DNA of 64,000 bases from Rhizobium sp. (GTDB lineage: Bacteria; Pseudomonadota; Alphaproteobacteria; Rhizobiales; Rhizobiaceae): the NCBI GenBank assembly GCA_028290545.1, contig JAQGJP010000104.1, positions 1 through 64,000 on the forward strand, written 5' to 3'. Under the pieces are notes generated by a model. The model did not search any database, was not told the origin of the DNA, and worked only from the letters and a program-made list of their open reading frames with translations. This document shows, piece by piece, positions 12,792-27,531 of the stretch; position 1 is the first letter of the stretch, and each line of letters opens with the position of its first letter. A program made the translations under genes and the position numbers.

Positions 12792-14063
12792 TTGTTCAGA
12801 TCCTTTTTTCCTAAGCCAAGCCTCTTTTTCGCTTCAGCGATTGCATGGGCGCTCGTCGCAGGCGCAATCTGGTTCATTGCACTGGATAGCTGGGAACCGG
12901 CGATAAGATTTTTCTCAAACTTTACTTCCACAGCACCTGGAACTGATGGCCGAGCGCCCTTTCTTACTCCGGACAAGCTCTATATCTACTGTTTCCTCAT
13001 ATTTTCGGGAATATTGTTCTCGCTATTCTGGACACTATATTCGGATCACGAGTGGCGTCGGTGGTCAGTTTGGGGCTCGACGCTGATCGTGCTGACGGCC
13101 TATTTCAACGTGCAGATCGACGTTTACCTAAACGACTGGTTCGGCAGCTTTTTCGACATGCTGCAGGCAGCTCTGACAAAGACGCGTGTCGTCACGACCG
13201 ACGAATATTACAGCTCACTTTTTTCGGTCACCGGAATTTTGGTGGTCAACATCATCTTCCTAGTTTTGCTGTCATTCTTCATCTCGCATTACGTATTCCG
13301 CTGGCGGACAGCGATGAACAATTACTATGTCGGTTATTGGCCCAAGGTGCGGATGATCGAGGGTGCGTCCCAGCGCGTGCAGGACGATACGATGCGCTTT
13401 GCGCGTGGACTTCAGGGTCTGGGCGTCAGCTTCATCAGCTCGATCATGACGCTGATTGCTTTCCTACCTTTGCTCTGGAACTTGTCCAAGCATGTCAAGG
13501 ATATCCCGCTGCTTGGCAGCGTGGACGGGTCGCTTGTGTTCGTGGCGCTGCTGTCAGCCAGTTTCGGCACGATCTTGCTGGCCTTGGTCGGTATTCGCCT
13601 GCCGGGACTTGAATTCCGCAACCAGAGAGTTGAAGCCGCATACAGAAAGGAACTGGTTTACGGGGAGGACCATGAGAATCGTGCCGATCCGATGACCTTG
13701 GCGGAATTATACGAGGGGGTGAAGCGCAACTATTTCCGACTCTATTTCAACTACATGTACTTCAACGTCGCTAAATACGCATATCTGCAGGGTGCTACGT
13801 TTGTTCCGTACTTTGCGCTGGGACCAACCGTGGTTGCCGGCACGATCACCTTCGGAATTTTCCAGCAGATCACCAATGCCTTTAGCCAGGTCGACAGTTC
13901 GTTCCGCTTCTTTGCTTCCTCCTGGAATGATATCGTCGAGATGCTTTCCATCTATAAACGACTGCGAGCGTTCGAGGCTGCGATTGAGGGTGAACCGCTT
14001 TCCTCGGTTGAGAAACCGTTTATCGACAGCAGCACGACCGAGATCGCGCAGTCGGAACTCTAA
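12792..14063 (+). CDS. bacA: SbmA/BacA peptide transporter
   Basis: This 423-residue inner-membrane transporter of the SbmA/BacA family imports proline-rich and other antimicrobial peptides. In rhizobia it is needed for survival of host NCR peptides in nodules and affects very-long-chain fatty acids in lipid A. The N-terminus MFRSFFPKPSLFF and the SbmA_BacA domain (FNVQIDVYLNDWFGSFFDMLQ, YYVGYWPKVRMIEGASQRVQDD, FRFFASSWNDIVEMLSIYKRL) span the whole protein. No ATP-binding cassette is present, as expected for this proton-driven branch. The homologous start is a TTG at 12792, with GGAG about 10 bp upstream, so translation may be modest. A terminator at 14079 follows. Confidence 0.95.
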   Translation: MFRSFFPKPSLFFASAIAWALVAGAIWFIALDSWEPAIRFFSNFTSTAPGTDGRAPFLTPDKLYIYCFLIFSGILFSLFWTLYSDHEWRRWSVWGSTLIVLTAYFNVQIDVYLNDWFGSFFDMLQAALTKTRVVTTDEYYSSLFSVTGILVVNIIFLVLLSFFISHYVFRWRTAMNNYYVGYWPKVRMIEGASQRVQDDTMRFARGLQGLGVSFISSIMTLIAFLPLLWNLSKHVKDIPLLGSVDGSLVFVALLSASFGTILLALVGIRLPGLEFRNQRVEAAYRKELVYGEDHENRADPMTLAELYEGVKRNYFRLYFNYMYFNVAKYAYLQGATFVPYFALGPTVVAGTITFGIFQQITNAFSQVDSSFRFFASSWNDIVEMLSIYKRLRAFEAAIEGEPLSSVEKPFIDSSTTEIAQSEL

Positions 14064-18964: not shown

Positions 18965-19219
18965 ATGCGTGTTGTCAACATGCTGGATGCCAAGACGAAT
19001 TTATCCAAACTCGTCGATGCAGTCGAAAGCGGCAACGAGAACGAAATTGTTATTGCACGGAACGGCAGACCGGCGGCGAAATTGGTGCCAATCACGGCTG
19101 CGTCGGCGGATCGCCAGCCTCTCGGGTTCCTCAATGGCAAATTTCCGCCGATGTCCCTGGAAGACTTCAATTCATCGAACGATGAGATCGAACGCCTTTT
19201 CTACGGAGACGACGATTGA
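18965..19219 (+). CDS. Phd/YefM-family antitoxin (module 2)
   Basis: This 84-residue protein begins MRVVNMLDAKTNLSKLVDAVESGNENEIVIARNGRPAAKLVPI, a classic Phd/YefM N-terminal fold. The C-terminal tail (MSLEDFNSSNDEIERLFYGDDD) is acidic and should bind the toxin. The stop overlaps the TTG start of the PIN toxin. It is clearly distinct in sequence from the antitoxins at 8.0 and 40.9 kb, so the three modules are not recent duplications. Confidence 0.93.
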   Translation: MRVVNMLDAKTNLSKLVDAVESGNENEIVIARNGRPAAKLVPITAASADRQPLGFLNGKFPPMSLEDFNSSNDEIERLFYGDDD

Positions 19220-19605
19220 GATTGCTGCTGGATACGCATGTTGCAATATGGGCTGTCGCGCAATTGGATCTCCTGCCCGAGCACATATTCGCGACGATAA
19301 CCAAAAATCTGAGTGAAGCCTTTGTTTCATCGATCAGCATACTCGAAATATCGGCAAAATATCAGCTTGGGAGAAAAGATGCGCCGCCTTTCGGCGGTGC
19401 TGACGCCGTCAGCTATTTCAAAGCTGTGGGATTCCAGTTCTTGCCAGTCTCACCGGAACATTCAGCAGCGGTCGATAATCTGGATCCTCATCACAAAGAT
19501 CCGTTCGATCGACTGCTTGTCGCTCAAGCGATGGTGGAGCCAATGCATCTTGTCTCCAAGGACGCGATGTTCTCGCTCTACGATTGTCCGCTGATAACCT
19601 GGTGA
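19216..19605 (+). CDS. vapC: VapC-like PIN-domain toxin (module 2)
   Basis: This 129-residue PIN protein has D6 in LLLDTHVAIWAV, the glutamate of SILEISAKYQLG, and the C-terminal acidic group HHKDPFDRLLVAQAMVE plus SKDAMF. It belongs to the PIN subgroup usually paired with Phd antitoxins. The TTG at 19216 overlaps the antitoxin stop (TTGA); a second TTG at 19222 is possible. Its end is 4 bp from the end of convergent der. Confidence 0.92.
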   Translation: MRLLLDTHVAIWAVAQLDLLPEHIFATITKNLSEAFVSSISILEISAKYQLGRKDAPPFGGADAVSYFKAVGFQFLPVSPEHSAAVDNLDPHHKDPFDRLLVAQAMVEPMHLVSKDAMFSLYDCPLITW

Positions 19606-19609
19606 TCGT

Positions 19610-21040
19610 CTACCGCTTCTTGCTCTTGGTCTCGTACGGATTGACCGAACCGCGATAGGAAATCCGGATCGGCACGCCTGTCAGACCGAAATCATCCCGC
19701 AAGCCGTTGATCAGGTAACGGGTATAGCTCTCCGACAGCGCTTCCGGTCGCGAGCTATGGATGATGAAGCCCGGCGGACGGGCCTTGATCTGCGTCATGT
19801 ATTTCAGCTTGACGCGGCGTCCCGAGACAGCCGGAGGCGGATGGCCCTGCGTCTGGAAATCGAGCCATCGATTGAGCTTGGCCGTCGAAACACGCTTGTT
19901 CCAAATCTTGTCGGTCTCTACGACAGCCTGCATCAGGCGATCGAGGCCGTCGCCGGTCTGGCCGGAAACCGTGACAGCACGGACGCCGCGAATCTGCGGC
20001 AACAACCGATCGGTCTTCTCGCGCAGCTCCGCGAGCACCTTCTGGCGATCCTCGATCAGATCCCATTTGTTGAAGGCGAGCACCACGGCCCTGCCCTCGC
20101 GCGCCGCGAAATCAACGATGTGCAGGTCCTGCTTTTCAAACGGAATGGTCGCGTCGAAGACGACGATGACCGTCTCGGCAAAACGCACGGCGCGCAAAGC
20201 GTCGGCAACCGAGAGCTTCTCGAGCTTTTCCGTCACCCGGGCCCGGCGGCGCATGCCGGCGGTGTCGAACATCTTGACCGTGCGGCCGCGCCATTCCCAT
20301 TCGACCGAGATGGAATCGCGGGTGATCCCGGCTTCCGGGCCGACCAGCAGCCGGTCCTGACCGATGAACCGGTTGATCAGCGTCGATTTGCCGGCATTCG
20401 GGCGACCGACGACGGCGATGCGCAACGGCTTGGTGTCATCGTAAACAGGCTCGATCTCCTCGCCATCGTCATCGAGATCGAGCTCTGTCGGCAGCGAGAT
20501 ATCCGTTTCGGCGAAATCCTCGTCGTCCTCGAAGGCCTTTTCCTCGCCGATCGCCAGCACGATCGCATCGCGCAGATCGCCCATGCCTTCTCCATGTTCG
20601 GCGGAGATCGGGCATGGCTCGCCCAGGCCAAGCGTATAGGCGTCATAGAATCCGGCATCCGAGCCCTTGGCCTCGGCCTTGTTGGCCACTAGGACCACGG
20701 GCCTGCCCCGACGACGGAGCATTTCGCCGAGCGTATTGTCGAGGTGCGTCAGGCCAAACTTGGCATCGATCAGAAACAGCGTGAGATCGGCTTCGTCGAT
20801 CGCCGCCTCCGTCTGCGCCCGCATCCGGCCTTCGAGCGTGTCTTCGTGAGCGTCTTCGAGACCGGCGGTATCGATGATCCGAAACCTGAGATCAAGAAGC
20901 TTCGCATCGCCGGGCCGGCGATCGCGGGTGACGCCCGGCATGTCATCGACGAGGGCGAGCTTCTTGCCCACCAGGCGGTTGAACAAGGTCGATTTGCCGA
21001 CATTGGGACGCCCGACAATAGCCACGGTAAAAGTCATCAT
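19610..21040 (-). CDS. der: Ribosome-assembly GTPase Der (EngA)
   Basis: Der is an essential double GTPase needed for 50S ribosomal subunit maturation. Both GTPase domains are complete: [27 protein letters not shown] and NKAE in the first, and [25 protein letters not shown] and NKWD in the second. They are joined by an acidic linker (about residues 165-205) and followed by the KH-like domain ([37 protein letters not shown]). The length of 476 is normal. Two adjacent ATGs (21040, 21037) are possible, with GGAG just upstream. It lies 30 bp after a TPR membrane protein gene. Confidence 0.97.
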
Positions 21041-21070: not shown

Positions 21071-21751
21071 TCAGCCGTTGGCCAACTTGCCGCTGGCCGT
21101 AATCAAGGCAAGCATGGTGCGGGCGCGCTGGGCAGCACCGGTCGGTGCCTCCGTATCGTCCACGATCAACTGGAACCAGTCGCGCGCCTTGGCATAATCA
21201 CCAGCCTTCCACGCCGACAGGCCGAGAACCTCGCGAGCGCTATGGCGCACGGATGCCGACGGCACCGCCAATTCCTCGACTTCGACCGCAACCTGCTCAT
21301 AAGTGCCGGTATCGACCAGCAACCAGCCAGCCCTCAGGCGCGATGCATTGCGGACGGCGAGGGGGACGGACTGGTCCTTGCCGATCGCCGAGAAATCGGA
21401 AACGGCGGCGGCGACATCGCCCTTTTCCGCCTTCAGGGTCGCAAGTCGCATGCGCGCCAGCACCGGATAGGCGCCGAAGCCATCCTTGGTGAGCGCCTCA
21501 AGTTCCTTGGTAGCTTCGTCCTTGCGATTTTCGTCCGAATTCTTCAGCGCCGAAAGATAGCGGTCGCCGGATGCGGAAGACTGCGATACCTGCCACCATT
21601 CATAAAGCGAAGTCCCGGCCACGCCCACGACGATAAGCACGGCAATGCCGACAATGAATGGCGCAAACCGCTTCCAGATGGATTTCATCTGCTCGGAACG
21701 CAATTCTTCGTTCACCTCGCGGATGAAACTGTCATTTTCATTCATGGCCAT
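21071..21751 (-). CDS. YfgM-like TPR membrane protein
   Basis: This 226-residue protein has a short cytoplasmic start (MNENDSFIREVNEELRSEQMKSIWKRFAP), one transmembrane helix at about residues 31-50, and a periplasmic tail of tetratricopeptide-like helices (residues 60-220). This is the TPR_21/YfgM architecture, which in other bacteria aids SecYEG-linked folding of exported proteins. In many genomes the order is yfgM, bamB, der; here bamB is absent and der follows directly. A start at 21745 (MNEND) is also possible. Confidence 0.85.
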   Translation of the reverse strand: MAMNENDSFIREVNEELRSEQMKSIWKRFAPFIVGIAVLIVVGVAGTSLYEWWQVSQSSASGDRYLSALKNSDENRKDEATKELEALTKDGFGAYPVLARMRLATLKAEKGDVAAAVSDFSAIGKDQSVPLAVRNASRLRAGWLLVDTGTYEQVAVEVEELAVPSASVRHSAREVLGLSAWKAGDYAKARDWFQLIVDDTEAPTGAAQRARTMLALITASGKLANG

Positions 21752-22013: not shown

Positions 22014-25000
22014 CTATGATCCCACCGCCAGTAGCCTGAAATCGGCGCCCGCCCATTGCACGATTTTTTCTTCGAGCCGTTCAGGGCTGATTGGCTTGGT
22101 AATGTGGTCGTTCATTCCCGACGCAACGCATTGTGCGGCATCGCCATCCTGAACATGGCTGATCACACCGATGATCGGCGTATACCCTCCGGTCATCGCC
22201 TCGATGGCGCGGATCATTCGCGTTGCCTCGAAACCGTCAAGTATCGGCATCGTCGTATCCATCAGTATCACCGACGGTCTCGCCTTCTGCCATGCCGCGA
22301 CCACCGCTTCGCCATTCTCCACGATGCGGTAGTCGATACCGGCGGATTCCAGAATCTGCGAGAAGAAGATCTGATTGACCTCATTGTCTTCCGCCACCAG
22401 CACATAGGGTCGGTCCGGCGGAGGGGAATCTGCCGAGACAATTCCCCGTGGTGGCGTTGACGGCAGGTGTGTGACATTGCGCCGGGAAGTAACCGAGCGT
22501 GCCCTTCCAGCCTGGATGACGTCCAGCAATGTCCCGCGCAACAATGGAATCCGGATAGGCTTTGTCAGATAGGCCTCAATCTTGATATCGGCGACCATCT
22601 TCTCATAAGTGGCGATATCCTGCGACGTCATGAAAATTACCGCAACGCCATGAAAGCGCGGATCGCTCCTGATCTGCCGGGCCATGTCGCCGCCACTCAT
22701 GTCAGTCATCTGTGAATCGATGATCACCGCATCCACCTCGACGCCGCTTTCGGCGGCGGCATGCAGAATCGACAGCCCCGTCGCGCCGTCTGCCGCGCCC
22801 ACGCATTCAAAGCCCCAGTCATTGGCATGTTCCAGCAAATGGTTGCGCGCGATATCATGATGATCGACGATCAGGATACGGGCGCCCTCCACATTGGCAG
22901 GCAGAGGCTTTGGCCTGCTTTGTTCCGCAGCGATCTGCACCGGCAGGCTCAGGGTAAAGATAGACCCCTTGTTTTCCGAACTGTGGACCGAAATCGTCCC
23001 GCCCTGAATGCTCGCGAGGCGCTGTGCGATCGCCAGACCAAGGCCGGAGCCCTCCCGGCGGTTCGCGTTGATTTCTATCTGCGAGAATTTCTCGAAAATC
23101 GTCCGCAACTTTTCGGCGGGGATGCCGATGCCAGTGTCCTCGATCATGACATTGAGAATGGTCTGGCCCTGGCCGTCGGATGCAGTGCCGATGCTGGCGG
23201 CAACGAAACCATGCTCGGTAAATTTCACGGCATTGTCGAGCAGATTGGTGATGATCTGGCGAAACCGACCGGCATCCCCCATGATCATCGCCGGTATATC
23301 GCCGGACCGCTTGACCAGAAGCTCAATATCCTTTTCGGATGCCGTGGTGGCAAGGAGCGATGCCACGTCCTCCAACGCCTCCCCGGGATCGAACGGCATA
23401 TATTTCAGTTGCATATGTCCGGCATCGAGCTTGGAGAAATCCAGGATGTCGTTGATGATCGTCAGCAACGCGTGGCCGGATTTCATGATGATTTCGACGA
23501 ACGCTTTCTGGCGCGTATCGAGTGCCGATTTCGCCAGCAATTCAGCCATTCCGAGAATGCCGTTCATCGGTGTCCGGATTTCCAGGCTCATATTGCCGAG
23601 GAATTCGGATTTGGCGCGATCGGCGGCCTCGGCCCGGGCAATCAGCCGCTTCAGTTCCGCTTCACGCCGCATCGTGGTTGTCTGGTCACTACACAGGATC
23701 ACGATCTGGCCGTCATCCCTCGAGCGCATATCGAGATGCACCCAGCGCTCGTTGTCGAGCGGAAAATTGTAGGACGTGCCCTTCTTGTTTGTCATTGCCT
23801 CGCGGAAGCGCGCTATTCCATCGGCAATTGTCAACTCGTCGTTCATCGGGTTCTGCAGGGCAGTGGCGCGGAACAGGTCGTCCCAGCGCCCTCCTTCCAT
23901 GAGCAGATGTTCCGAAATATTGAGCACCGCCGCCAGGCTCGGATTGGCGAATACGATGAATTCACCTTCGATCACCATCAGGCCTTCAGGCATGGTGTCT
24001 GTGGCGCTGCGCACCAGGCTATAGGCCTTCTGCGCCATTTCATGGGCTTGCACCACCTCGGCGTCGCGCTTCCTGAGCTCGGTCAAGTCCACATAGCAGA
24101 GCATGAACTTGCCGTCGGACAGCGGAATCCCGGAGTAGAAAACTGCCGCTCCGTTCTGCAGCAAGGCTTCGCGACCATGGATGCGGCCCGAGCGGATTTC
24201 ACCCACGCGGCGCTCATAATAGTCTTCGAATGTCTCATTTGAATCGACGCGACGATCGTTGACAAAATGATCGTACATGAAGTCCCGCAGCGGCCGTCCG
24301 ACGATCCCGCCCTGCCAGTCTTCCGACGCCTTGCCCCAGATCTTCTTCTTGTAGGCCTCGTTCATCAACAGGACATTCATATCGCGGTCCAGGACAACGA
24401 GCGCGACATCGATAGCCGAAATTATGTTCTCGAAGTCCTGGCGACTGGACTCCGCCTTTTCCGTGGCCTCCTTGAGCAGCAACTCCCGCTGACGGATCGG
24501 TGAAATATCGACGACGGTTCCGACGATATAGGGCGTGCCCTTCTCGGTGATCAGACGCCCTGTCCTGACAATGGTCCTGGCGATCCGTCCGCCAGCAACG
24601 GTTATTTCGTCTTCGCGCTCACTGCTTGTGCCGTTGATCAGCGTATCAAGATTGGCTTCCGCCACGACGGCCGCAAGTTCCCCCAGTAGTTCGGCCTGCG
24701 TCGTGCCGATCAGGTCCTCCACCTTGCGGCCGTAGAGTTCGGCATAGGCCTGATTGGCCACCGCAAGGCGCAGGTCCGAACCACGCGCGAAAGCCGCCAC
24801 GGGCAACCTGTTCAGCAGTTCGCGATAGAGCCCGACCTCCTCGATATGCTGCTCGAGCATGGCTTCACGCGCCTTCATATCGGAGACATCGATCCTGAGG
24901 CCGATCATGCTGCCGTCAGCCAGCCGTCGATTGACATTGTAAATCCAGACACCGGTCGGCAATTTCTGGTAAACTGCCGAACTAGGTTGATTGTAGGCAG

Positions 25001-25721
25001 CCAGCCGCTCGTCAATCCACTGCCTGCGCGCCTCATCGTTGGCGAGCAATTCGGCATCTTCCGGCGAGGAAAAGGTTTCGAATGACTGGCTCGCGACCTC
25101 GCTCAGATCCATGCCGATCCACAGTCGATCGACGGTGCCGCGAAACATCTCCCGCAGTTTTTCATTGAAATAAGTGAGCTTGTTATCGGCACTCCAGATG
25201 CAGACGCCGACATCGATGACGCCGATCAGATGTTCGAACTGAGAACCATCGATCAGGCTCGACTGCAGGGCGCGCGATTCTTCTTCCACCGCAGCCAATA
25301 GAGGCGTCTGCAAAGGCGACAAGGCCTTTTCAGGGGCAGCGGAGCGCACGTCGCCGAAAACGCAATAAAGAAACGTCTGGCCGTCGGCGAGAGTAAAGCG
25401 TTCCATCTCGATCCGGAACCGCCCTTTGCCGAACGGATCGGCGAATGACGATACCTGGTCCTCGCCGAACACGAGGCAGGCGCGCTCCTTGTCATCGATG
25501 TCGAGCAAGGCCTCAAGTTCGGCATTCTCGCCGTCCGTGCCGACGAGATCCGAGACCCGCATGTTGAAAAGATTGGCAAAAGCGTCGTTGACGGCAACGA
25601 ATACACGCTCGCTATTCTTGATGAACGCGGGGGTCCCGAGACCGAGTATTCGATCGCAAATTTTATCCAGCAGAGGATCGCGGTAATAAATCAAGAATTC
25701 TCTCCCGCAGAATCGGGACAT
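22014..25721 (-). CDS. Multi-PAS hybrid histidine-kinase-like protein lacking the phosphoacceptor histidine
   Basis: This 1235-residue cytoplasmic protein has no clear membrane span. Four to five PAS-like segments (residues about 20-130, 165-285, 300-410, 425-555, 570-680) lead to a HisKA-like dimerisation helix, a HATPase domain (about 755-880) and two receiver domains. In the H-box the usual NMSHEIRTP reads NMSLEIRTP, with L713 in place of histidine (codon CTG). The ATP lid is intact: NLLDNAVKF, DTGIGIP, GSGLGLA. Both receivers keep their acceptor aspartates (D1002 in VIIDSQMTD, D1155 in ILMDTTMP) and lysines (LTKPI, ITKPI). It may act as a ligand-controlled scaffold or phosphatase, as DivL does. 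No cognate regulator is adjacent. Confidence 0.9.
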   Translation of the reverse strand: MSRFCGREFLIYYRDPLLDKICDRILGLGTPAFIKNSERVFVAVNDAFANLFNMRVSDLVGTDGENAELEALLDIDDKERACLVFGEDQVSSFADPFGKGRFRIEMERFTLADGQTFLYCVFGDVRSAAPEKALSPLQTPLLAAVEEESRALQSSLIDGSQFEHLIGVIDVGVCIWSADNKLTYFNEKLREMFRGTVDRLWIGMDLSEVASQSFETFSSPEDAELLANDEARRQWIDERLAAYNQPSSAVYQKLPTGVWIYNVNRRLADGSMIGLRIDVSDMKAREAMLEQHIEEVGLYRELLNRLPVAAFARGSDLRLAVANQAYAELYGRKVEDLIGTTQAELLGELAAVVAEANLDTLINGTSSEREDEITVAGGRIARTIVRTGRLITEKGTPYIVGTVVDISPIRQRELLLKEATEKAESSRQDFENIISAIDVALVVLDRDMNVLLMNEAYKKKIWGKASEDWQGGIVGRPLRDFMYDHFVNDRRVDSNETFEDYYERRVGEIRSGRIHGREALLQNGAAVFYSGIPLSDGKFMLCYVDLTELRKRDAEVVQAHEMAQKAYSLVRSATDTMPEGLMVIEGEFIVFANPSLAAVLNISEHLLMEGGRWDDLFRATALQNPMNDELTIADGIARFREAMTNKKGTSYNFPLDNERWVHLDMRSRDDGQIVILCSDQTTTMRREAELKRLIARAEAADRAKSEFLGNMSLEIRTPMNGILGMAELLAKSALDTRQKAFVEIIMKSGHALLTIINDILDFSKLDAGHMQLKYMPFDPGEALEDVASLLATTASEKDIELLVKRSGDIPAMIMGDAGRFRQIITNLLDNAVKFTEHGFVAASIGTASDGQGQTILNVMIEDTGIGIPAEKLRTIFEKFSQIEINANRREGSGLGLAIAQRLASIQGGTISVHSSENKGSIFTLSLPVQIAAEQSRPKPLPANVEGARILIVDHHDIARNHLLEHANDWGFECVGAADGATGLSILHAAAESGVEVDAVIIDSQMTDMSGGDMARQIRSDPRFHGVAVIFMTSQDIATYEKMVADIKIEAYLTKPIRIPLLRGTLLDVIQAGRARSVTSRRNVTHLPSTPPRGIVSADSPPPDRPYVLVAEDNEVNQIFFSQILESAGIDYRIVENGEAVVAAWQKARPSVILMDTTMPILDGFEATRMIRAIEAMTGGYTPIIGVISHVQDGDAAQCVASGMNDHITKPISPERLEEKIVQWAGADFRLLAVGS

Positions 25722-25729
25722 TAATGTCC
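25716..25729. promoter_or_regulatory. Perfect 14-bp palindrome over the hybrid kinase start codon
   Basis: GGACATTAATGTCC is self-complementary and contains the ATG (minus strand, 25721). It could be a binding site for a repressor or an mRNA structure at the start; nothing in the window shows which. Confidence 0.35.
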
Positions 25730-25944
25730 ATTGGGTTTACCATTGCAACCTTAAGCACCGGTTAACCATGCAGGGCTTGCCCGAACATAATCATTCGCAT
25801 CCAGTCGCCACTCTGGCGCATGCAGGATAGAACCTTGTCTCTTCGCGGCAATCATTTGTTTGGTGTGTCGCTTTTAATAGAGGCTCGACACAGCGGTTTT
25901 TGATATGGTTATGTATATACAAATCGAAAATGAACGGGCAGGAC

Positions 25945-27531
25945 ATGAGCACTGAGGGCACACAGGCAGCGACCATTCACGAAGAGACCTCGGGCGATGG
26001 TGCCCGTCGCAGGCGCCCCGGAGGTCGTGGCGGCGATCGGACGCGCAAGAGCTCGGGTTCGTCCTACCTCAACCTCACCAACACCCGCGCGAAGACGGAG
26101 CTGCTTTCCGCCGATCAGATCGAAGCGATCCACAATGCATCGCTGACCGTCCTCGAAGAGATCGGCATGGACATCATGCTGCCGGAAGCGCGCGACCGGA
26201 TGAAAGCTGCCGGGGCATCGGCAACCCCGGGAACGGACCGCGTTCGCTTCGATCGCGGCCTGATCATGGACATGATCGCCACCGTGCCGAAGGAATTCAC
26301 GCTGCACGCCCGCAATCCGATCCGCAACGTCAGGATGGGCGGCAACAGTCTGGCATTCGGGCAGGTTGCGTCCGCGCCTTTCGTGTCCGATCTCGACGGC
26401 GGACGCCGGACCGGCAATCAGGCCGATTACCGCAAGATGCTGAAGCTCGCCCAATCCTATGACATCATCCACCTGAACGGCGGCTATCCGGTCGAGCCGG
26501 TGGATATCCACGCCTCCGTCCGCCATCTCGACTGCCTTTCCGACTGCGTGAAGCTGACGGACAAGGCATTCCACGCCTATTCGCTCGGCAAGCAGCGCAA
26601 CACCGACGCGATCGAGATCGCACGCATCGGTCGCGGCATCAGCATGGAACAGATGGAGCGCGAACCGTCGCTGTTCACGATCATCAACTCGTCCTCGCCG
26701 TTGCGGCTCGACGGCCCGATGCTTCAGGGCATTATCGAGATGGCCTCGACCAACCAGGTCGTGATCCTGACGCCGTTCACCCTTGCCGGTGCCATGGCCC
26801 CGGTGACGATTGCCGGTGCACTGGTGCAACAGAACGCTGAGGCTCTCTGCGGTATTGCGTTCACCCAGATGGTTCGTCGCGGCGCCCCGGCCGCCTATGG
26901 TGGCTTCACGTCGAACGTCGACATGAAAACCGGCGCTCCGGCATTCGGCACACCCGAATATATGAAAGCGGTGATCGCCGGCGGCCAGCTCGCCCGCCGT
27001 TACGGCTTCCCCTACCGCACGTCCAACACCAACGCCGCCAATACGATCGATGCACAGGCGGCCTACGAATCGGTGTTCTCGCTCTGGGGCGTGATCGAAG
27101 GCGGCGGCAATTTCGTCATGCATTCGGCCGGCTGGACCGAGGGCGGCCTGACCGCCTCCTTCGAAAAGTTCATCCTCGATGTCGACCTCCTGCAGATGGT
27201 CGCGGAATTCCTCAAGCCGCTCGACGTCTCGGAAGACGCGCTGGCGCTTGACGCCATCCGCGACGTTGGTCCCGGCGGTCATTTCTTCGGTACGGCGCAC
27301 ACGCTTGCGCGCTATGAGACAGCCTTCTATTCGCCGCTGATTTCTGACTGGCGCAACAACGAGACCTGGGTTGAGGCCGGTAGCCCGACGGCCTTCGACC
27401 GCGCAAACAAGATCTACAAGGAAACGCTCGCCAACTATGAGCGCCCGGCAATCGATCCGGCGGTCGAGGAAGAACTCGATGCTTTCGTCGCCAGGCGGAA
27501 GGCGGAAGGCGGCGTGCCGACCGATTTCTGA
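25945..27531 (+). CDS. MttB-family (non-pyrrolysine) corrinoid methyltransferase
   Basis: This protein of about 528 residues belongs to the trimethylamine methyltransferase MttB superfamily. Recognisable segments are LTVLEEIGMDIMLPEARDRM, FGQVASAPFVSDLDGG, LNGGYPVEPVDI and YRTSNTNAANTIDAQAAYES. No in-frame UAG codon occurs, so it is the pyrrolysine-free kind. Characterised members of that kind (MtgB and relatives) demethylate glycine betaine or similar quaternary amines onto a corrinoid protein. Partner corrinoid protein and reactivase genes are not adjacent. The first 35 residues are Arg/Gly-rich (RRRRPGGRGGDRTRKSSGSS). The ATG at 25945 is preferred; 25930 adds five residues. Substrate is unknown. 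Confidence 0.85.
   Translation: MSTEGTQAATIHEETSGDGARRRRPGGRGGDRTRKSSGSSYLNLTNTRAKTELLSADQIEAIHNASLTVLEEIGMDIMLPEARDRMKAAGASATPGTDRVRFDRGLIMDMIATVPKEFTLHARNPIRNVRMGGNSLAFGQVASAPFVSDLDGGRRTGNQADYRKMLKLAQSYDIIHLNGGYPVEPVDIHASVRHLDCLSDCVKLTDKAFHAYSLGKQRNTDAIEIARIGRGISMEQMEREPSLFTIINSSSPLRLDGPMLQGIIEMASTNQVVILTPFTLAGAMAPVTIAGALVQQNAEALCGIAFTQMVRRGAPAAYGGFTSNVDMKTGAPAFGTPEYMKAVIAGGQLARRYGFPYRTSNTNAANTIDAQAAYESVFSLWGVIEGGGNFVMHSAGWTEGGLTASFEKFILDVDLLQMVAEFLKPLDVSEDALALDAIRDVGPGGHFFGTAHTLARYETAFYSPLISDWRNNETWVEAGSPTAFDRANKIYKETLANYERPAIDPAVEEELDAFVARRKAEGGVPTDF

Follow-up and report, generated by a model that had tools for sequence, protein, structure and literature searches.

The 64,000-nucleotide window analysed here (positions 1 to 64,000, forward strand, of contig JAQGJP010000104.1 in the Rhizobium sp. 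assembly GCA_028290545.1) carries on its minus strand, at 22014–25721, a gene for a large multi-domain sensor protein of the hybrid histidine kinase type in which leucine stands at the site of the phosphoacceptor histidine. The acceptor histidine is missing in five of eight sister genomes of the genus as well as in the window genome. Its probable role is to regulate a different signalling protein. We put at about one in two the probability of a more specific reading, namely that it is a functional, selected pseudo-histidine kinase which is unable to phosphorylate its DHp helix and exerts its effect by docking on a partner, in the manner of DivL or RetS. The gene and its parts are as follows.

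22014–25721, minus strand: pseudo-histidine kinase gene, 1235 residues, in the order PAS region, HisKA (with Leu), HATPase, REC, REC
23652–25721, minus strand: N-terminal PAS region, residues 1–690; Pfam PAS_7 (three stretches), PAS_4/PAS and PAS_8
23418–23615, minus strand: HisKA (DHp) domain, residues 703–768, by Pfam; two long helices in the model
23583–23585, minus strand: CTG codon of Leu713, at the phosphoacceptor histidine site, by codon reading and alignment
23571–23582, minus strand: E714-x-x-T717 transmitter phosphatase motif, both residues present in all 76 aligned rows
22935–23279, minus strand: HATPase_c (CA) domain, residues 815–929, by Pfam; contains the N, G1, F and G2 boxes
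22512–22880, minus strand: first receiver, REC1, about residues 948–1070; Asp1002 and Lys1054 kept; acidic pair D953-H954
22062–22403, minus strand: second receiver, REC2, residues 1107–1220; Asp1155 and Lys1209 kept; Ile1187 (22161–22163) at the switch threonine

The minus-strand frame was translated into 1235 residues with no internal stop, and its H-box reads NMSLEIRTP, with leucine at residue 713. The protein exceeds the Pfam cut-offs for HisKA (64.8 bits against 26.9), for HATPase_c and, twice, for Response_reg, and is therefore a hybrid histidine kinase by descent. As judged from sequence motifs, it has the N, G1, F and G2 boxes of an active kinase and lacks the phosphoacceptor histidine. 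An earlier, sequence-only reading of the window had given the gene, its coordinates, the residue number and the CTG codon of Leu713, all of which were confirmed by translation and codon reading. A needed residue that is missing from a retained gene is the description of a pseudo-histidine kinase in PMC12632262, and this description fits the sequence of the protein. The literature used for comparison included PMC9491836, PMC11481889 and PMC9022086.

We searched nine genomes of the genus and found in each a single match at an expectation value (E) of 1e-150 or better, full-length or nearly so, the other eight proteins being 47–60% identical to the window protein. Column 713 holds leucine in the window genome (G000, codon CTG) and in G001 (CTC), isoleucine in G007 (ATC), valine in G002, G003 and G005 (GTG) and histidine in G004, G006 and G008 (CAC). 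The alignment with homologues that the sequence-only reading had proposed thus finds a residue other than histidine in six of nine orthologues from the genus. A sequencing error at Leu713 was rejected, as independent genomes also lack histidine at that column. The residues one base step from a histidine codon are asparagine, glutamine, proline, arginine, leucine, aspartate and tyrosine. Leucine is thus no closer by codon than N, D, Q, P, R or Y, yet the replacements in the genus are solely aliphatic (Leu, Ile, Val), which suggests that an aliphatic residue is required at position 713.

The search was extended to 394 Rhizobiaceae genomes, 75 of which gave a match at E 1e-165 or better and 319 none at that level. 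These 75 matches together with the protein of G006 make up the alignment of 76 rows used throughout, from which a duplicate record of G001 was left out. Residue 713 is histidine in 69 rows, valine in three, leucine in two, isoleucine in one and arginine in one (G217). The five other genomes of the genus to which G217 belongs have histidine, as did all the weaker best matches outside the window's genus in a smaller search. G217 is a member of a long-branched group from another genus (L020, L110, L112, L113 and L117, from G022, G217, G360, G148 and G274, respectively) with an altered F box, in all five of which REC1 has serine for Asp1002 and arginine for Lys1054; G217 additionally has the arginine at the acceptor position. 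The window genome, which is 81% complete, was searched for HisKA domains, and the H-boxes of all 40 matches were read by eye. Histidine is present in 38 of them, and the only two without it are this gene and a second one, L196.

The DHp and CA core was modelled with AlphaFold (residues 672–940, built with 50 of 75 usable aligned rows). The model has a mean predicted local distance difference test score of 82 and a predicted template modelling score of 0.72, with a lid region (model residues 209–221) that is not to be trusted, and it consists of a hairpin of two helices and an ATPase part of the alpha-beta type. Helix 1 (residues 10–59 of the model) contains residue 713, which is model residue 42. 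The closest solved folds are GacS (7z8n) and RetS (6dk7, 6dk8, 7n0e), followed by ShkA (6qrj), HK853 and DivL (4q20); by sequence, the top five structures are 7z8n, 7p8e, 7n0e, 6dk8 and 6dk7.

The sequence-only reading had allowed that the true acceptor might be a histidine elsewhere in the dimerisation helix. We scanned helix 1 of the AlphaFold model for another histidine and found none. In the model, His750 lies in helix 2 and His769 just past it. In the order G000, G001, G007, G002, G003 and G005, the residues are H, H, N, K, K and K at position 750, and H, H, Q, H, H and H at 769. Neither residue is on helix 1 or common to all six histidine-less proteins, and both were rejected as a substitute acceptor. 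His769 is found in five of the six histidine-less rows of the genus, in none of the three rows of the His group (G004, G006 and G008) and in three of 67 rows outside the genus, a faint lead.

The ATP site was followed through 11 residues selected from the box motifs: Asn826, Asn830, Asp862, Gly864, Gly866, Phe876, Phe879, Gly891, Gly893, Gly895 and Leu896. All 11 are present in the six histidine-less rows, in agreement with the N, G1 and G2 boxes reported from the sequence alone, and each is present in 65 to 70 of the other 70 rows. The six histidine-less proteins share as little as 40% identity, yet have no variation among them in 53 of the 136 columns of CA and 44 of the 81 columns of DHp.

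The receivers were more changed. The sequence-only reading had described two intact receivers, and this holds for the aspartate and lysine of each (Asp1002 and Lys1054, Asp1155 and Lys1209) but not for the acidic pair of REC1 or for the switch threonine of REC2. Asp1002 is present in all nine rows from the genus and Asp1155 in every REC2 of the genus that is in frame. The acidic pair of the window protein is Asp953-His954, where 47 of 69 His rows have aspartate at 954, and that of G007 is Ala-Lys. Position 1187, that of the switch threonine, is I, I, S, V and A in G000, G001, G007, G005 and G003, the five histidine-less proteins of the genus with an in-frame REC2; the serine of G007 may still serve as the switch residue. 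Thr1187 is present in 67 of 69 His rows and is also kept in G217; the remaining two His rows, those of G006 and G400, are out of frame or truncated at this point. A role of REC2 as a phospho-switch is therefore weakened. The same division is seen at position 740, which is alanine in all six histidine-less rows of the genus, alanine in two of 69 His rows and threonine in G217. With G217 excluded, Fisher p values for the association of histidine loss with the changes at 740 and 1187 are about 1e-7, but the rows are related and the values describe a pattern rather than a test. REC2 is out of frame in L070 (G002) and L067 (G006), possibly through assembly error. The out-of-frame stretch lacks the threonine at 1187 in G002 and has it in G006, and the two genomes are 86% and 84% complete, respectively, the latter with 6% contamination.

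To measure constraint, we calculated ratios of non-synonymous to synonymous substitution (dN/dS) by the Nei–Gojobori method; dS in the pairs used was 0.36 to 1.55, so that the ratios are rough, and for REC2 no usable value came from pairs in which one partner is out of frame. For the Val pairs G002–G005, G003–G005 and G002–G003, in that order, dN/dS was 0.00, 0.02 and 0.03 in DHp, 0.06, 0.05 and 0.07 in CA, 0.08, 0.10 and 0.12 in REC1, and 0.13, 0.12 and 0.16 in the PAS part. The DHp residues of G002 and G005 are identical across 81 codons. The Leu pair gave 0.08 in DHp, 0.15 in CA, 0.26 in REC1, 0.24 in the PAS part and 0.29 in REC2. For the His-bearing pairs G004–G008 and G004–G006, DHp gave 0.03 and 0.04, CA 0.10 and 0.17, REC1 0.22 and 0.14, and the PAS part 0.25 and 0.22. 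Since the His-bearing pairs give the same order, the core shows no visible relaxation after the loss of histidine; it is about as constrained as the His-bearing core and carries no special signature. The low core ratios, the kept ATP-site residues and the Leu, Ile or Val found in six of nine orthologues all support the proposal of the sequence-only reading that this is a pseudokinase and not a decayed gene.

The history of the loss differs according to the part of the gene examined. Two whole-protein trees grouped the six histidine-less proteins together (93 and 91 at the key branch), and the six were again united in a tree of the core plus receivers (96); in these trees the His group is placed beside the genera from outside. 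In free trees of single parts, the Ile protein (G007) fell beside the outside genera with the core alone (54) and beside the His group with the receivers alone (63); in both, the Leu and Val proteins stood apart from these two groups (97 for the core, 100 for the receivers). Among six trees compared, the core alone and the receivers alone each favoured the one with a histidine-less clade. The PAS part rejected this clade (approximately unbiased test, p 0.031) and had the Val proteins branch first and the Ile protein next, followed by the His group together with the Leu pair, an order that was itself rejected by the core (0.005) and the receivers (0.019). Other orders with the His group inside were not all rejected (0.061 for one with the core, 0.054 for another with the receivers). 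A tree of 14 frames around nuo, in which G008 was absent and G006 partial, agreed in its order with the PAS part (supports 95, 88 and 81), and a tree of neighbouring genes also placed the His group inside the histidine-less ones, although one node of this tree has a support of 65 and its outgroup genes are few. The change between CTC and CAC is one base in either direction. These trees would be consistent either with parallel losses accompanied by like changes in the core, or with one loss after which a His-bearing 3′ part was returned by recombination or mutation.

The His-bearing orthologues in G004, G006 and G008 have the same locus and architecture at 55–56% identity. All three differ in having histidine (CAC) and Thr740, and G004 and G008 also in having Thr1187. 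Homologues in the other Rhizobiaceae genomes listed have the same architecture at 33–44% identity.

RetS of Pseudomonas aeruginosa is a hybrid kinase that restrains GacS by phosphate capture on its REC2, by phosphatase activity and by a block of autophosphorylation (PMC5992135). Like RetS, the window protein has two receivers behind its HisKA and HATPase core, keeps E-x-x-T and would not be expected to autophosphorylate, and among solved folds RetS and GacS come closest to the model of that core. The sensor of RetS is periplasmic; the window protein instead has PAS domains. The pattern of loss is the opposite, as RetS retains its H-box and has a degenerate HATPase (PMC5992135), whereas the window protein lacks the histidine and keeps the HATPase motifs. 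In what it has lost, as far as motifs tell, the window protein is the mirror image of RetS.

The sequence-only reading had cited DivL as the precedent. DivL, found in Caulobacter and in rhizobia, likewise has several PAS domains, a replaced acceptor histidine and a retained core. It has tyrosine at the acceptor position, neither kinase nor phosphatase activity and weak nucleotide binding, senses DivK~P and ends in its DHp–CA core (PMC4211667), whereas the window protein has leucine and two receivers after the core. In DivL, the Y550H change by itself did not bring back autokinase activity (PMC4211667). The precedent therefore stands for the lost acceptor, but identity with DivL was rejected, as a Tyr H-box protein that ends after CA (by eye) is encoded elsewhere in the same genome. 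This is L196 (G000:C35:74160-74363), with the H-box MSYELRSP, a frame that ends soon after CA and a PAS-rich appearance by eye; we call it a DivL-like protein from its sequence.

The Caulobacter hybrid kinase CCNA_03265 (CC3162), which is motility-linked, also lacks the conserved histidine and keeps its receiver aspartate (PMC11481889). A nearby histidine on the same helix, His151, is left open as an acceptor in that paper; the modelled helix 1 of the window protein has no such residue. A ChrS pseudokinase variant of Corynebacterium glutamicum is an inactive kinase with an effect of its own and forms heterodimers with HrrS but, unlike the window protein, it arose in laboratory evolution through a frameshift in CA (PMC9491836). 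Among the papers listed, our literature search found none on this protein family, with RdsA (Rhizobium etli RHE_PE00024) an unlikely exception, which is not proof that there is none. The sole sensor histidine kinase listed in NC_007765.1 15000-40000, which we assumed from its name to be RdsA, is 24% identical to the window protein over 387 columns, and p42e, the plasmid of RdsA, is outside the best 25 of 194 plasmid records. Both results tell against orthology with RdsA, the first as far as the assumed name holds.

For the reading that the protein regulates a partner by docking, the following mechanism can be proposed. It follows from known chemistry that, with the acceptor histidine replaced, the protein's own DHp helix would not be phosphorylated at the usual place and no His-to-Asp relay would start there. 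Signals from the PAS region, together with nucleotide binding, would set the conformation of the DHp–CA core, which would dock on a receiver or another hybrid kinase, possibly as a heterodimer, and alter its activity, as RetS does with GacS and DivL with CckA. The fused receivers would be less phospho-switches than leftovers or docking modules. Several observations weigh against this reading. No partner, output or phenotype was found; the nine neighbouring proteins scanned include no regulator or Hpt, and no genome-wide partner search was made. The order of dN/dS values is the same in the His-bearing pairs, so that the pattern alone does not point to a new function, and with high dS the ratios are rough. 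REC2 is out of frame in the histidine-less G002. Finally, a plain scaffold leaves one feature unexplained, the retention of the ATP site; because a pure scaffold does not need it, another use of ATP may be involved. The site could serve conformational locking, stimulation of phosphatase activity or phosphorylation of a partner in trans.

Among the alternatives, it is rather unlikely that the protein is a dedicated phosphatase, which lost kinase activity and uses E714-x-x-T717 with bound nucleotide to dephosphorylate a partner receiver. Glu714 and Thr717 are in all 76 rows, RetS has such an activity towards GacS (PMC5992135), and histidine contributes to HisKA phosphatase activity without being essential for it (PMC12632262). 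However, the motif is present in every ordinary relative and does not distinguish this protein, DivL has no phosphatase activity on DivK~P (PMC4211667), and frequencies are used to argue that this is no general function of pseudo-histidine kinases (PMC12632262). The retained ATP site could also mean that the CA domain phosphorylates the histidine of a different, H-bearing kinase in trans within an obligatory heterodimer. The presence of all 11 ATP-site residues in six proteins with identity down to 40%, and a CA dN/dS of 0.05–0.07 among the Val species, are in favour of this. We consider it improbable all the same, as the window genome (81% complete) has no close H-bearing paralogue, the next match being 41% identical over residues 675–940. 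A one-gene kinase would here have become a two-gene one, and we give equally little credence to this evolutionary course, with either two or three parallel losses of histidine within the genus or a single loss and a later return in the G004 group.

The receivers and the reading frame bear on the two remaining explanations. That the receivers take phosphate from another kinase or an Hpt, with the dead core merely holding them, is improbable. In its favour are the aspartates at 1155, in every in-frame REC2 of the genus, and at 1002, in all nine rows, as well as the precedent of RetS, the REC2 of which is a sink for GacS (PMC5992135). Set against these are the replaced switch threonine in five of five in-frame histidine-less rows (serine in one), the altered acidic pair of REC1 in G000 and G007, and receiver dN/dS values of 0.08–0.29 (in frame) in histidine-less pairs, which exceed the DHp and CA values of those pairs. 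Phosphorylation of a receiver can take place without the switch threonine, so that its replacement is not decisive. Early decay, in which a kinase is on its way out and the substitution is functionless, seems very unlikely indeed. The Val and Ile proteins are long-branched in the gene tree, receiver residues have changed and REC2 of G002 is out of frame, all as decay would have it. Yet five histidine-less species have a whole frame and the sixth has one that stays open through REC1, core dN/dS is far below 1 and lowest in DHp and CA, and only aliphatic replacements occur where N, D, Q, P, R and Y were as near by codon.

The surroundings of the gene are conserved. In all nine genomes of the genus it is flanked by TPR and Der-type genes on one side and by a divergent MTTB-family gene on the other; in the window these neighbours are as follows.

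25945–27531, plus strand: MTTB-family methyltransferase, divergent neighbour, beside the gene in 9/9 genomes of the genus and 4/12 loci outside it
21071–21751, minus strand: TPR_21 protein, syntenic neighbour
19610–21040, minus strand: probable Der-type GTPase, syntenic neighbour, named from its sequence

The four outside loci with a divergent MTTB-family gene are those of G137, G188, G369 and G086. The MTTB-family protein scored 293 bits against the NCBIfam trimethylamine model, far below the cut-off of 525. A control region shared by the kinase and MTTB-family genes is possible in 25722–25944. Two further genes in the window are a SbmA/BacA-family transporter gene (12792–14063, plus strand, Pfam 455 bits) and a gene for a PIN-domain protein (19216–19605, plus strand), possibly the toxin of a toxin–antitoxin pair. 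Among the genus loci compared, the latter has a match in G004 only, the contig of G008 ending before that place.

Pseudo-histidine kinases as a kind are already known and uncommon, histidine being missing in 722 of 76,471 HisKA domains (0.9%; PMC12632262), and although they are recognised, few are understood. What is new here, as read from the alignments, is a lineage with an aliphatic residue for histidine that retains its ATP site and whose locus is occupied in sister species by natural His-bearing orthologues. The same gene is found in the same place in sister species with and without the histidine, with the ATP-site residues kept in both, so that the consequences of acceptor loss can be compared between natural orthologues. 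The aliphatic replacements, together with the changed switch threonine of REC2, suggest a route from relay kinase to regulator.

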